Source: Acetobacteraceae bacterium (GTDB lineage Bacteria; Pseudomonadota; Alphaproteobacteria; Acetobacterales; Acetobacteraceae). Taken from it: a stretch of 5,406 bases of DNA. This document shows positions 594 to 4,848 of this stretch, piece after piece (position 1 is the stretch's first letter; each line of letters opens with the position of its first letter). Both the position numbers and the translations under genes were made by a program. The notes beneath the pieces are model-generated. The model saw only the letters and a list, made by a program, of their open reading frames with translations, ran no database searches and had not been told where the DNA came from. The DNA is taken from assembly GCA_947476855.1 (NCBI GenBank), contig CANJSR010000346.1, positions 1-5,406 on the forward strand. Direction: 5' to 3'.

Positions 594-629
594 TTCACGG
601 AATTTGCCAAAAGCCGATCATTCACGGAA
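594..629. repeat. Short direct repeat TTCACGGAA at the 3' end of the TIR-FGE gene
   Basis: TTCACGGAA occurs at 594-602 and again at 621-629, 27 bases apart in phase. The second copy covers the stop codon (622-624) and the last codons of the minus-strand TIR-FGE gene. The surrounding 60 bases (601-660) are only 25/60 GC by hand count. The repeat is short enough to be chance. Confidence 0.35.
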
Positions 630-2271
630 CGAAATAATTTCTCGCAAGTCGAAATCCGACATCATCGCGTCGATGGTCGATGCTGACGACGTTACGAATA
701 CCCGCGCGGATGTACCTCGGCTCCTCGCGCCAGGAACCACCGCGCAGTATCCGGCGATCAGGGTAGCCGCCAGCGCTCCATACTGATCCGTCGCGCGGTC
801 GTCCTTTGTAGTCATCGTGCCACGGGTCTGCAACCCACTGCCATACAAGGCCAAGCATGCCGTGCAAGTTGAAGTCGTTGGCTTGCAAATCGTTGGCCGG
901 CACCGCCCCTCGAAAACGCGGTGGGATGTGATTCACGCCATCTTCGAAACGGTCCCCCCAGAAATATGCAGTTACACTGCGCGCGCGGGCCGCAGACTCC
1001 CATTCTGCTTCACTGGGCAAGCGATACGGGGTTTCGTGACCGGCCTCTTTGATTAGGCGGATCGTGTCATTGAGCCAGTCGATATAGGCTTCGGCGTCCG
1101 TATAGCTGACATTCCCTGCCGGCAGCCTCGCGTCTCGGTCCTTAGGCTTGTTCTTCCACGTATCGTCAACCGGGTGGTCCGGTCTGGCGTTGAGGAAAGC
1201 GCGATACTCGCCAACTGTGATCGGGTAATTACTCATGAAGAAGGGGGGAACCGTTACCTCCGGCCTCTCCCGAGACCTTGGCCATGCCTTGTCACCCATC
1301 TCGAACCTGCTCTCAGGAATCAGGACCATCTTGGGGCACACAGCGCATTGGGGGATCGCCCTAGGCACCGCCGCGACCAATGGTGCAATCGTGGTGGGCG
1401 GCGCTACGATAGGGGCCGACGCCGGTGTCTGACGGCGTGAACCGGCAGTATATTTTTCTGCGACCTCGCTGAAATACGCTATCGCTCGTGGCAGGCCCCA
1501 GATACCGATTCCGATCCCCACTACCACAAGCCCAATCGACATCGCCCACGTGCGTTGCGAGAAGCCGAGCCTTCCCGGGTCGAATCGCGCCAATGGCGCA
1601 GCCGGTGCGCCGGCGGCCGCGGTGGAAAGTGCCTCTTCAGGAATGTGACTTGCGCTGGGTGAAGGGGTTTCCGTGTCCCGTTTCGACACAGGCGCCGTTG
1701 CCCGGTGGCCAGATGGTAGAACAATCGGCATCACAGGTACGGTCGTCGGCGCCACCCGGTACAGCGTTTCCTCGATCCGGGTGGCAAAGGCCCGCAACCT
1801 CTCCCGCATATCGGGCGTGTCCAGGCCCTTCGTTTCCACATCCGTGAAATCGACCCAGTGGAGGGTCTTCAGATAAGCGAACAGCGCCGGATCATGAATT
1901 TCATCCTGCCGAACGGTGTTGAACAGCGACACATTCGTGAAACAGATCGGCAGAATCAGATCCTTGCGGCCCCGCGCTTCCATCAATGTCCGGAAATACC
2001 TGATCTCTTCCGCGCAGTTTGGGCTGTGCAGCAGCGCGGGCGTGATGATCGGGATCAGGAAGGATGCTTCCCGCAATGCGCTCTCAATCTGCGCCCGCCA
2101 TTCCGTGCCCGGAGGAATGGCGGCGACATCCTGGAACACTCGAACCTCGAGTTTCCCCAGTTTCTGCTTCAACTGCGCCTGCAGGCTCTCAAGAAGGCCG
2201 CTAAGCCGCCTGCCCGAGGCCACGTCATCGTCCCGCGTATAGCTCCAGAATCCGATTGGCGGCAGCGACAC
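622..2271 (-). CDS. TIR domain - transmembrane - FGE/SUMF1-like (C-type lectin fold) fusion protein
   Basis: A 549-residue protein. Residues 5-165 form a TIR domain: box 1 FWSYTRDDD (8-16), a VFQD strand with a BB-loop-like segment (45-55), and S83-x-x-C86-x-x-E89, the usual site of the catalytic glutamate in NAD-cleaving TIRs. A Pro/Ala-rich linker precedes a hydrophobic helix (about 241-267), then a second linker. Residues 309-549 form an FGE-sulfatase/SUMF1 domain: CxxCPKMVLIP (309-319), PYRLPSEAEWESAAR (415-429), GLVWQW (474-479), RILRGGSW (507-514) and DDVGFRLAR (536-544). After C312 this domain has no cysteine, so both copper-binding cysteines of true formylglycine-generating enzymes are missing and the family enzyme activity is unlikely. 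The start is GTG at 2269-2271, because an in-frame TGA lies at 2278-2280 and box 1 begins seven codons in. I infer a membrane-anchored sensor-effector, possibly anti-phage; the ligand is unknown. GC is lower than in the flanks. Confidence 0.88.
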   Translation of the reverse strand: MSLPPIGFWSYTRDDDVASGRRLSGLLESLQAQLKQKLGKLEVRVFQDVAAIPPGTEWRAQIESALREASFLIPIITPALLHSPNCAEEIRYFRTLMEARGRKDLILPICFTNVSLFNTVRQDEIHDPALFAYLKTLHWVDFTDVETKGLDTPDMRERLRAFATRIEETLYRVAPTTVPVMPIVLPSGHRATAPVSKRDTETPSPSASHIPEEALSTAAAGAPAAPLARFDPGRLGFSQRTWAMSIGLVVVGIGIGIWGLPRAIAYFSEVAEKYTAGSRRQTPASAPIVAPPTTIAPLVAAVPRAIPQCAVCPKMVLIPESRFEMGDKAWPRSRERPEVTVPPFFMSNYPITVGEYRAFLNARPDHPVDDTWKNKPKDRDARLPAGNVSYTDAEAYIDWLNDTIRLIKEAGHETPYRLPSEAEWESAARARSVTAYFWGDRFEDGVNHIPPRFRGAVPANDLQANDFNLHGMLGLVWQWVADPWHDDYKGRPRDGSVWSAGGYPDRRILRGGSWREEPRYIRAGIRNVVSIDHRRDDVGFRLARNYFVP

Positions 2272-2860: not shown

Positions 2861-2905
2861 ATGACATACGCCCATACGACGCTGTCAGCCGGGAACCCCG
2901 GTTGA
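2861..2905 (+). CDS. Leader peptide ORF overlapping the MFS transporter start
   Basis: ATG 2861 opens a 14-codon ORF reading MTYAHTTLSAGNPG, with stop TGA at 2903-2905. A purine-rich GGGGAG (2851-2856) sits four bases before the ATG, a better ribosome site than any directly before the transporter gene. The stop overlaps the transporter start as TGATG (2903-2907), the classical arrangement for translational coupling. The peptide has no run of a single amino acid that would suggest ordinary attenuation. I infer that ribosomes load here and reinitiate at 2905. That the peptide itself has a function is not shown. The alternative is chance overlap with a weak independent transporter start. Confidence 0.45.
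   Translation: MTYAHTTLSAGNPG
2889..2901 (+). promoter_or_regulatory. Small hairpin directly before the MFS start codon
   Basis: CCGGG (2889-2893) and CCCGG (2897-2901) form a perfect 5-bp stem with an AAC loop, ending three bases before ATG 2905. It covers GGGA, the only weak Shine-Dalgarno-like bases for that start, and lies inside the leader ORF. Ribosomes translating the leader would melt it, which fits coupled translation. Confidence 0.35.
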
Positions 2906-4122
2906 TGGGGGACACCGCACGCACCCGCACGATCCTGATCGGCGCCTCGGTCATGCTCTGCCTCAGCATGGGCATGCGCCAGAGCCTCAGCCTGTTCCTG
3001 CCGCCCGTCACCCGAGACCTCGCGCTGACCGCGGCCGACTTCACCTTCGCCGTCGCCGTGCAGAATATCGCCTGGGGCCTGTCGCAGGCCCCGATCGGCA
3101 TGATCGCCGACAAGTTCGGCCTGCGCATCGCCATGGTCCTCGGCGCGATCACCTACGCGGCCGGGATCACCGTGATGGCGACGGCCACCGGCGCCATGTC
3201 GCTCGCGGTATCCGGCGGGTTGATCGGCATCGCGCTGTCCTGCACCGCCTCCTCCCTCTGCATGACCGCCTGCGCCCGCGCCGTCCCCGAATCCCGCCGC
3301 TCCACGATGCTCGGCATTGTCGCGGCCACGAGTTCGCTGGGCATGATGCTGGTCGCCCCGATCCTGCAGGTGCTGCTGCAAGGCCATGCGTGGCGCGTCG
3401 CCATGATCTTCTTCCTGGTGCTGGCCGCGGTCATGGTGCCCGCCGCCTTCCTGGCGGGCGGCGCCGACAAGCTGCCCAGACCCAACCGCGCGACGGTGAC
3501 GATGCGGGAGGTCCTCGGCCAGGCCGCCCGCCATCGCGGCTTCCTGGTGATGTCGGCCGCCTATTTCGTCTGCGGCCTGCAACTGGTGTTCCTGACCACG
3601 CATCTGCCGAACTACCTGGATGTCTGCGGCCTCGACCCGATGCTCGGCGCGCAGGCCCTGGCCGTCATCGGCGGGATGAACGTCCTCGGCTCCTACTCGG
3701 CCGGCTGGCTCGGCGGGCGGTATCCGAAGCATATCCTGCTGGGGATGCTGTATGTTCTGCGGTCCTGCGTGCTGACGCTGTACTTCGTGATGCCGCCGAG
3801 CCCGACCTCGACGATCATGTTCGCGGCGGCGATGGGGATGCTGTGGCTGGGCGTGATGCCGCTGGTCAGCGGTCTGGTGGCCGAGATGTTCGGCACCCGC
3901 TACATGGCGACGCTGCTGGGCCTTGCGTTCGTCACCCACCAGTTCGGATCGTTCCTGGGCGCCTATGGCGGCGGGCTGATCTTCGACCTGCTGGGGTCCT
4001 ATGACCGCGCCTGGCAGATCGGCGTGTCGATCGGCGTGATGGCCGGGTGCGCGCAAATCCTGTTCGGCGGGCCGCCCCAGCGGCGTGATCGGATCGGCGC
4101 CCCGGTGCTCAGCGCCGGCTGA
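2905..4122 (+). CDS. MFS transporter, 12-helix, monocarboxylate/oxalate-formate-like
   Basis: A 405-residue inner-membrane protein with about twelve hydrophobic segments and a central cytoplasmic loop (about 186-212). The first helix ends in GMRQSLSLFLPPVTRDL (23-39), typical of the OFA/monocarboxylate-porter-like branch of the major facilitator superfamily. Motif A follows helix 2 as G65-x-x-x-D69-K-x-G72-x-R74. A degenerate second copy lies at about 267-276, and the C-half has THQFGSFLGAYGGGLIFDLLGSYD (344-367), another branch feature. Members carry small organic anions with protons or by exchange; the substrate here cannot be told. ATG 2905 is preferred over TTG 2902 because it overlaps the leader stop. 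No enzyme gene adjoins it to hint at a pathway. A strong hairpin begins six bases after the stop. Confidence 0.9.
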   Translation: MGDTARTRTILIGASVMLCLSMGMRQSLSLFLPPVTRDLALTAADFTFAVAVQNIAWGLSQAPIGMIADKFGLRIAMVLGAITYAAGITVMATATGAMSLAVSGGLIGIALSCTASSLCMTACARAVPESRRSTMLGIVAATSSLGMMLVAPILQVLLQGHAWRVAMIFFLVLAAVMVPAAFLAGGADKLPRPNRATVTMREVLGQAARHRGFLVMSAAYFVCGLQLVFLTTHLPNYLDVCGLDPMLGAQALAVIGGMNVLGSYSAGWLGGRYPKHILLGMLYVLRSCVLTLYFVMPPSPTSTIMFAAAMGMLWLGVMPLVSGLVAEMFGTRYMATLLGLAFVTHQFGSFLGAYGGGLIFDLLGSYDRAWQIGVSIGVMAGCAQILFGGPPQRRDRIGAPVLSAG

Positions 4123-4164: not shown

Positions 4165-4446
4165 TTACTGTGACTTGGTCGAGGACTGGCGCTTTCCGGC
4201 GGCGTAGCCGTCATTGTACGACTGCGCCTCGTTCTTCTTGACCTGATCATAGACCAGCCCACCCGCGAGGCCGGCAGCCGCCCCCGCCGCGGCGCCGAGA
4301 CCGGCATTACCGCCGATCGCACCCAGAATCGCACCCACGCCCGCGCCGCCCACCGTGCCGGTCAGGGCACGCTGCTGCGTGTCGTTCATGCCCGTGCACC
4401 CGGCAAGGCTTCCCGCCAGCAGCAGGCCAACAAAGATCTTACCCAT
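4165..4446 (-). CDS. Glycine-zipper outer-membrane lipoprotein
   Basis: A 93-residue protein. The N-terminus is a lipoprotein signal: MGK, a hydrophobic stretch, and lipobox L14-A15-G16-C17. The residue after Cys is Thr rather than Asp, so outer-membrane sorting is expected. Residues 30-64 form a glycine zipper of repeated G-x-x-x-G spacings (GTVGGAGVGAILGAIGG and onward), which can insert into or pack against membranes. A charged tail (65-93) follows, with YDQVKKNE and YNDGYAAGKR. Such proteins usually brace the envelope or respond to envelope stress; the exact role is unknown. The start ATG 4444-4446 has AAGGAG (plus 4455-4460) eight bases upstream. That site overlaps the stop of the preceding Rap1a-like gene, so the two are almost certainly co-transcribed and perhaps translationally coupled. 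Confidence 0.85.
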   Translation of the reverse strand: MGKIFVGLLLAGSLAGCTGMNDTQQRALTGTVGGAGVGAILGAIGGNAGLGAAAGAAAGLAGGLVYDQVKKNEAQSYNDGYAAGKRQSSTKSQ

Positions 4447-4458
4447 TATCCGATCTCC

Positions 4459-4848
4459 TTACTTGCCGCGCTTGCAGGGGTAACGGCCGCCCAGATAGGC
4501 GAACATCGAATCGAACGGCTTCATCGCCAGCCGGGACGCATCGGCCTTGGCCCAGGTGACGAAGTCGGCGATCGCCGTATCGCGCGTGGGCGCTGGGTTC
4601 GGCAGGCAGAACATGCGGTGGCGCTTGCTCGCTTCCTGGTGGATCTGATGCATCTGCACCCCGCCGACGATGAACCCGTGGCAGAAATTCAGCGCGGCGG
4701 TGCCCAGAGGCTCCTTCGGGTCGGCGGCGCACAGCGCAACCAGGTCATTCGTCGTCTTGATCTGGAAATTGTCCTCGGTGACGGCGTTCGCCGGCCCGAT
4801 GGCCAGGAACGGCAGCAATGCCAGGCCGGCCAGTCGTGAAAGTTTCAT
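4459..4848 (-). CDS. Rap1a/Tai-like periplasmic protein
   Basis: A 129-residue protein with a signal peptide (KLSR, hydrophobic core 6-18, cleavage likely after ANA at residue 22). The mature part has four cysteines: NDLVALC40, NFCHGFIVGG with C56, FCLP with C81, and GGRYPC125. This spacing, with FVTWAKADASRL between the last two, fits the Rap1a/Tai immunity fold, a small disulfide-linked helical periplasmic domain. Characterised members neutralise type VI secreted peptidoglycan amidases. Many genomic relatives have no known effector, and none is visible here, so an immunity role is possible but unproven. The start ATG 4846-4848 has a GAGGAA ribosome site eight bases upstream. It is the first gene of a two-gene unit, with the glycine-zipper lipoprotein starting 12 bases after its stop (TAA 4459-4461). 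Confidence 0.8.
   Translation of the reverse strand: MKLSRLAGLALLPFLAIGPANAVTEDNFQIKTTNDLVALCAADPKEPLGTAALNFCHGFIVGGVQMHQIHQEASKRHRMFCLPNPAPTRDTAIADFVTWAKADASRLAMKPFDSMFAYLGGRYPCKRGK

Follow-up and report, generated by a model that had tools for sequence, protein, structure and literature searches.

A 5,406-nucleotide stretch of Acetobacteraceae DNA (contig CANJSR010000346.1, assembly GCA_947476855.1), called the window here in its full length, carries an intact open reading frame (ORF) on its minus strand. The protein joins a TIR domain, a membrane helix and a domain with the fold of formylglycine-generating enzyme (FGE) and C-type lectins (CLec), and the end of that fold corresponds to the variable region (VR) rewritten by diversity-generating retroelements (DGRs) in relatives. 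The features of the gene are:

622..2271, minus strand: TIR-transmembrane (TM)-FGE gene, 549 amino acids, GTG start (ORF, Pfam, alignment, AlphaFold2 (AF2))
1756..2271, minus strand: TIR domain, residues 1-172, with Pfam TIR_2 at 32-145 (Pfam, AF2, structural alignment)
2005..2007, minus strand: codon of E89, at the catalytic-glutamate position of S-x-x-C-x-x-E (alignment)
1444..1557, minus strand: membrane helix, residues 239-276 of the AF2 model (hydropathy, AF2)
1336..1347, minus strand: C309-x-x-C312-P pair at the start of the FGE domain (sequence comparison)
640..1338, minus strand: FGE/CLec-fold domain, residues 312-544 (Pfam, AF2, structural alignment)
649..744, minus strand: VR-homologous segment R510-R541, frozen-looking in the window allele (comparison with relatives' DGR VRs)

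The reading frame has no internal stops. TIR_2 (PF13676, E 3.3e-15) and FGE-sulfatase (PF03781, E 7.3e-43) both matched above their curated cut-offs. The AF2 model had a mean predicted local distance difference test score (pLDDT) of 82.5, mostly > 90 in the TIR and FGE blocks, about 75 in the helix and < 50 in the stretches 188-237 and 274-307. A first-pass annotation, made from the letters alone, had proposed TIR, hydrophobic helix and FGE-like domain in one chain, with structure prediction of the two domains as a check; Pfam matches, hydropathy and AF2 agree on this layout, and the helix that it placed at 241-267 coincides with the hydropathy maximum (about 242-260) and the AF2 helix. Its interpretation is supported in part, and it overlooked the DGR variable region. 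Rows from the structural aligner mostly covered residues 305-547, the TIR part appearing only in rows 47, 49 and 50 among the first 50.

Homologue counts rest on the best 120 of 814 matches. TIR followed by FGE was found in 84 of these, and the recurrence of this order argues against a chance fusion. Other combinations were also seen: in P0106 the same TIR type is joined to a trypsin-like domain (PF13365) in place of FGE, and P0087 and P0090 join a caspase to FGE.

The TIR domain contains S83-x-x-C86-x-x-E89, as the first reading of the sequence had held. C86 and E89 are invariant in a 24-protein alignment and at least 90% conserved in an alignment of 80 rows, and E89 lies at the position of the catalytic glutamate of TIR NADases. 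NAD cleavage is the predicted activity. The first-pass annotation had seen no partner gene, and neither ThsA nor an NTPase was found among the six flanking ORFs scanned, which also gave no PADLOC matches. Thoeris membership was rejected on the absence of ThsA among these ORFs; unlike SPARTA, the window has no Argonaute/APAZ. PADLOC matches to the TIR part of the gene itself were weak (best 1.8e-05).

The only cysteines in the protein are at positions 86, 110, 309 and 312. In human FGE the catalytic pair C336/C341 lies near the C-terminus (according to structure entry titles), and since the FGE domain of the window protein has no cysteine after residue 312 it cannot be a formylglycine-generating enzyme; that identity was rejected because the catalytic pair is missing.

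The helix between the domains was called at a hydropathy of at least 1.4, with stricter cut-offs of 1.5 and 1.6 also run. At the laxest cut-off it was present in 29 of the 84 TIR-FGE homologues. A C-x(1-3)-C-P pair where the FGE domain begins accompanied it in 19/29 helix-bearing proteins versus 0/55 others (18/28 versus 1/56 at 1.5; 14/23 versus 5/61 at 1.6), and lysine plus arginine totalled 86 in the 15 residues before the helix versus 45 in the 15 after it; both contrasts are raw counts that ignore kinship between homologues. The window's C309-x-x-C312-P is common to periplasmic-type PvdO and the helix-bearing relatives. That the cysteine pair accompanies the helix suggests a disulfide, formed under the oxidising conditions of the periplasm, and by its charge bias the TIR domain would lie inside the cell. 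Both agree with a predicted N-in/C-out topology, with TIR very probably cytoplasmic and the lectin fold periplasmic. The helix is not universal: at the laxest cut-off 55 of the 84 are without it, and in these proteins sensing would be expected in the cytosol.

The last 32 or so residues of the lectin fold (R510-R541) correspond to the VRs of DGR targets among the relatives, and a CLec fold with a C-terminal VR is what characterizes such targets. Across the family this segment is hypervariable. P0003 and P0004 are 98% identical in TIR, but in FGE their identity is 96% outside residues 513-541 and only 59% within them. Among TIR-FGE pairs with 80 to 98% identity in the rest of FGE, mean VR identity was 58% and was the lower value in 22/22 pairs; among those at 70 to 80% it was 55% and lower in 38/39. 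In control FGE proteins without TIR at 70 to 80%, the VR was 69% identical versus 72% for the rest (14 pairs from 9 proteins). Two effector-fused pairs without TIR also showed the drop (P0087/P0090, 84 versus 53%; P0114/P0101, 70 versus 47%). Between P0002 and P0006, 17/17 adenine-mutable codons vary, compared with 2/15 other codons.

Relatives also carry the machinery. Locus L001, on contig CAIRCM010000039.1 of an uncultured Acetobacteraceae metagenome-assembled genome (MAG), has a TIR-TM-FGE gene followed by bAvd (PF22296, E 7.5e-19), a reverse transcriptase (RT; PF00078, E 6.5e-14) and a template region (TR) copy of the VR; 15 of the 16 VR/TR mismatches, over 125 nt, are opposite a TR adenine. 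In a sister genome, G333, template and RT are on contig C16 and TIR-FGE targets on separate contigs, C29 and C28. Changes relative to the TR affect 17/31 adenines versus 1/95 other bases in the C29 VR (one-sided Fisher, 9e-12) and 14/31 versus 4/95 in the C28 VR (3e-07), the Fisher tests covering 10 chosen comparisons among 33. One RT and template can thus serve distant TIR-FGE receptors. The G333 template also suits a TIR-FGE gene of G401 (14/31 A, 6/95 non-A), and the adenine-specific pattern recurs in non-TIR targets (G160:C66, G216, G004, G333:C90 and G160:C98).

Strong TIR and FGE domains in one frame occur in 20 relatives from 10 genomes. The VR scan caught 17 of them, its motif missing G003:C376, G003:C4 and G362:C141; spurious motif hits (G160:C19, RAAARR...; G002:C47, RAAGRR...) were ignored and rows without an equal-length template, such as G269:C46, were left out of the comparison. 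Several TIR-FGE VRs had no matching template among those found, including G001:C52 (17/28 A versus 18/98 non-A) and G001:C26 (19/28 A versus 23-25/98 non-A). The RT clade was present at high identity in 5/33 genus-group genomes, one as a fragment, and in 3/397 family genomes drawn, at E 1e-20. The genomes are mostly fragmented MAGs, or seemingly so.

Three loci show other arrangements. The DGR core operon of G333 (L051 7252-9783, on C16) consists of a small ThsB-like TIR gene, a helical-FGE target, bAvd and RT, TIR being a separate gene here and fused in other loci. At L066 (G333:C90, about 5677-6180) and L056 (G160:C98, about 8541-8954), VR/TR pairs lie a few hundred bases apart without a full RT gene between them; these may be DGR satellites that depend on an RT from elsewhere acting in trans.

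The window locus has its counterpart in G333:C29: there the MFS protein is 98% identical, the tail of the indolepyruvate ferredoxin oxidoreductase-type gene 98% and a small ORF 96%. In 100-base bins the flanks are mostly 89 to 99% identical and the TIR-FGE gene mostly 54 to 88%. By the Nei-Gojobori method (NG86), the two TIR-FGE alleles differ by 0.73 synonymous (dS) and 0.21 non-synonymous (dN) substitutions per site, compared with 0.13 and 0.01 for the MFS gene. The gap at silent sites indicates replaced or long-kept alleles; fast point selection was rejected as its cause because synonymous sites are equally diverged. The window protein is also a mosaic. Its TIR is 94% identical to that of P0005, whose FGE is only 63% identical, and its FGE is 97% identical to that of P0001, whose TIR is 84% identical. 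This switch, near residue 172, points to domain swapping.

We favour, at somewhat better than an even chance, the interpretation that the window gene encodes a one-chain membrane receptor belonging to a DGR-diversified sensor family, with an inverted Toll-like layout and probably a defensive role. The N-terminal TIR would lie in the cytoplasm and a single helix would cross the inner membrane, while the enzymatically dead FGE/CLec fold would present its variable face in the periplasm. That face may bind a ligand, most likely part of a phage or of a competitor, met at the cell surface or in the periplasm; binding would cluster chains and bring TIR domains together, and the NAD cleavage so switched on would stop or kill the cell. 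For binding, activation and outcome this is the most likely course, judged from general TIR and CLec biology and from proposals for FGE/CLec sensors in the available parts of three papers (PMC8195603, PMC10907252, PMC7159879). In relatives, one RT and one adenine-rich template would rewrite the binding faces of several scattered receptor genes, with alleles and domains also exchanged by recombination, and the window copy would be one such allele, apparently without recent mutation.

More tentatively, and with rather less than even confidence, the protein might be seen as an inverted Toll-like receptor whose diversification resembles that of antibodies. In its branch of Acetobacteraceae, several one-chain TIR receptors scattered among core genes would have their periplasmic binding faces rewritten in trans by one RT and template. 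Together with hyperdivergent, domain-swapped alleles at receptor loci, these would form an anticipatory anti-phage repertoire that needs no NTPase or second-messenger partner.

Several observations weigh against the receptor interpretation. The 5.4-kb window holds no RT, template or second VR copy. Compared with the closest TR found, that of G333, the window VR has mismatches at 15/31 A and 23/95 non-A positions (P = 0.011), and the VR of P0001 is about 97% like the window's at 97% FGE identity, i.e. no more variable than the rest. Only 3/17 scanned TIR-FGE relatives (G333:C29, G333:C28 and G001:C39) closely match a template in their own genome, and the RT clade was found in 4/9 genomes tested. 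A small phage/plasmid search gave matches to the FGE domain only, at 42 to 45% query cover (9 phage and 7 plasmid records), and most genes near the receptors of G333 and G001 have housekeeping roles.

The non-A mismatches and the conservation of the VR against P0001 give no sign of recent mutagenesis in the window copy. Somewhat more likely than not, this allele is an old DGR target, decayed or frozen, which no longer takes part in mutagenesis and is now either a receptor of fixed specificity or drifting; the 3' end of its VR, which is unlike that of the G333 template, fits the same explanation. Against this stand the intact frame and a dN/dS of about 0.3 versus the G333 allele, which indicate that selection is still acting. 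Also against it, the window peptide departs from the G333 template peptide at 12 amino acids, all of them on the 17 adenine-mutable codons and none on the other 15, although fold constraint alone could give this pattern. A frozen state concerns the window copy alone and is compatible with a receptor from a DGR-diversified family.

A role in envelope or cell-cell signalling rather than defence appears unlikely but deserves weight. The DGR face would then read particles, kin or neighbours, and TIR would make a signal nucleotide or act as a scaffold without killing. Cellular DGR targets have been described as mainly membrane-anchored and concerned with cell-particle and cell-cell contact, and those of cyanobacteria have been interpreted as signalling proteins (available parts of PMC8144416 and PMC7517822, respectively); the housekeeping surroundings of the loci examined point the same way. 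Against this, the TIR domain keeps its conserved cysteine and glutamate, one DGR locus adjoins HEC-01A/B, the core operon of G333 includes the ThsB-like TIR gene, and hyperdivergent alleles at one locus would be typical of conflict genes. Very improbable is a periplasmic PvdO/FGE-type enzyme whose C-terminal domain is catalytic and whose TIR is only a multimerising scaffold, given that no cysteine is left for an FGE-type pair, that the family's hypervariable C-terminal face suits binding and not a conserved active site, and that NCBIfam PvdO, GldK and EgtB matches to the protein were all far under their cut-offs.

In L001, candidate defence genes HEC-01A (5e-140) and HEC-01B (2e-51), encoding AAA_21 and DUF4276 proteins, occupy 7118-8886, with one gene's distance to the TIR-FGE DGR locus, and the small TIR gene of the G333 core operon, upstream of the helical-FGE target, resembles ThsB (5e-17). 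These neighbours lend thin support to a defence role. The surroundings are mostly housekeeping; rimM-trmD-rplS-like genes, their names recognised by eye, stand beside the DGR core. In viral contigs, 30 matches to the pattern included none related to the TIR alignment. Phages of the Microcystis MaMV-DC/LMM01 group encode an FGE-domain protein (37% identity) annotated as a kinase or hypothetical protein.

In the window the gene is flanked by the 3' end of the indolepyruvate ferredoxin oxidoreductase-type gene, the small ORF (2360-2725/2875, minus strand) and the MFS transporter gene (2902-4122), with glycine-zipper and Rap1a-like genes at 4165-4848. The small conserved ORF (2360-2875) begins like a signal peptide and matched nothing in Pfam or NCBIfam. 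The aligned stretch of C29, from the MFS gene to a coiled-coil gene, gave no glycine-zipper or Rap1a-like match, the pair having seemingly been inserted or lost. The TIR-FGE gene has a GC content of 60% (0.68 at third codon positions, GC3), compared with 69% for the MFS gene (GC3 0.93) and 71% for bases 1-440. Rfam gave no matches in the window.

The literature already contains FGE/CLec sensors that are diversified by DGRs and coupled to immunity-like effectors, among them TIR. Candidate antigen sensors of this kind have been described in multicellular bacteria, as in Thiohalocapsa PB-PSB1 (available part of PMC10907252): they share the C-terminal FGE/CLec fold with VR, the DGR RT and template, effectors (at some loci TIR), targets that are remote or more than one and, for some, a predicted periplasmic location. 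Their sensors are tied to STAND/NACHT NTPases or to MoxR-vWA ternary systems, whereas the window family has TIR, helix and FGE in one chain, no NTPase and an Acetobacteraceae host. Conflict systems with FGS domains (PF03781) likewise propose FGS as invader sensor, with TIR effectors and DGR links, but as far as the available text goes are built around NTPase, EAD or bDLD adaptors (PMC8195603, PMC7159879). No NTPase of the STAND-FGS or MoxR-vWA kind was found in the chain or the six flanking ORFs scanned, and membership of a ternary conflict system was rejected for want of that partner.

Cyanobacterial DGR variable proteins come close in that a TIR-like N-terminal domain can precede a VR-bearing CLec fold and variable proteins may be remote (PMC7517822). 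In the accessible portion of that paper, however, the TIR-like form is the less common one, most are kinases and predicted cytosolic, and a membrane-spanning TIR case is not spelled out. In the published accounts seen in part, FGE/CLec sensors are thus linked to NTPases, adaptors or kinases (PMC10907252, PMC8195603, PMC7159879, PMC7517822), and the word 'TIR' is absent from the available text of a DGR target survey (PMC8144416). TvpA (2y3c), a variable protein that a DGR of Treponema denticola diversifies, has no TIR. Searches of open-licence papers turned up no one-chain TIR-membrane-FGE receptor diversified in trans in Acetobacteraceae, and no paper paired 'TIR domain' with 'FGE-sulfatase' or 'diversity-generating retroelement' with 'Acetobacteraceae'; these are weak absences.

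Most bacterial TIR sensors studied are cytosolic or depend on a partner. If our interpretation is correct, one small protein combines a TIR domain for the response, a signal path across the membrane and a binding face open to deliberate mutation. It would offer a simple setting in which to ask if a cellular lectin-fold protein, once diversified by a DGR, senses a different invader. Natural material is at hand in G333, where one template serves TIR-FGE targets on at least two contigs other than its own, and in the hyperdivergent allele at the window locus. There is a parallel in layout with Toll-like receptors, which consist of an ectodomain, one helix and a cytosolic TIR. The window chain is likewise predicted to consist of ectodomain, single helix and TIR, but instead of a leucine-rich repeat ectodomain followed by a C-terminal TIR it has the inverted order, with TIR N-terminal and a lectin fold as its ectodomain.
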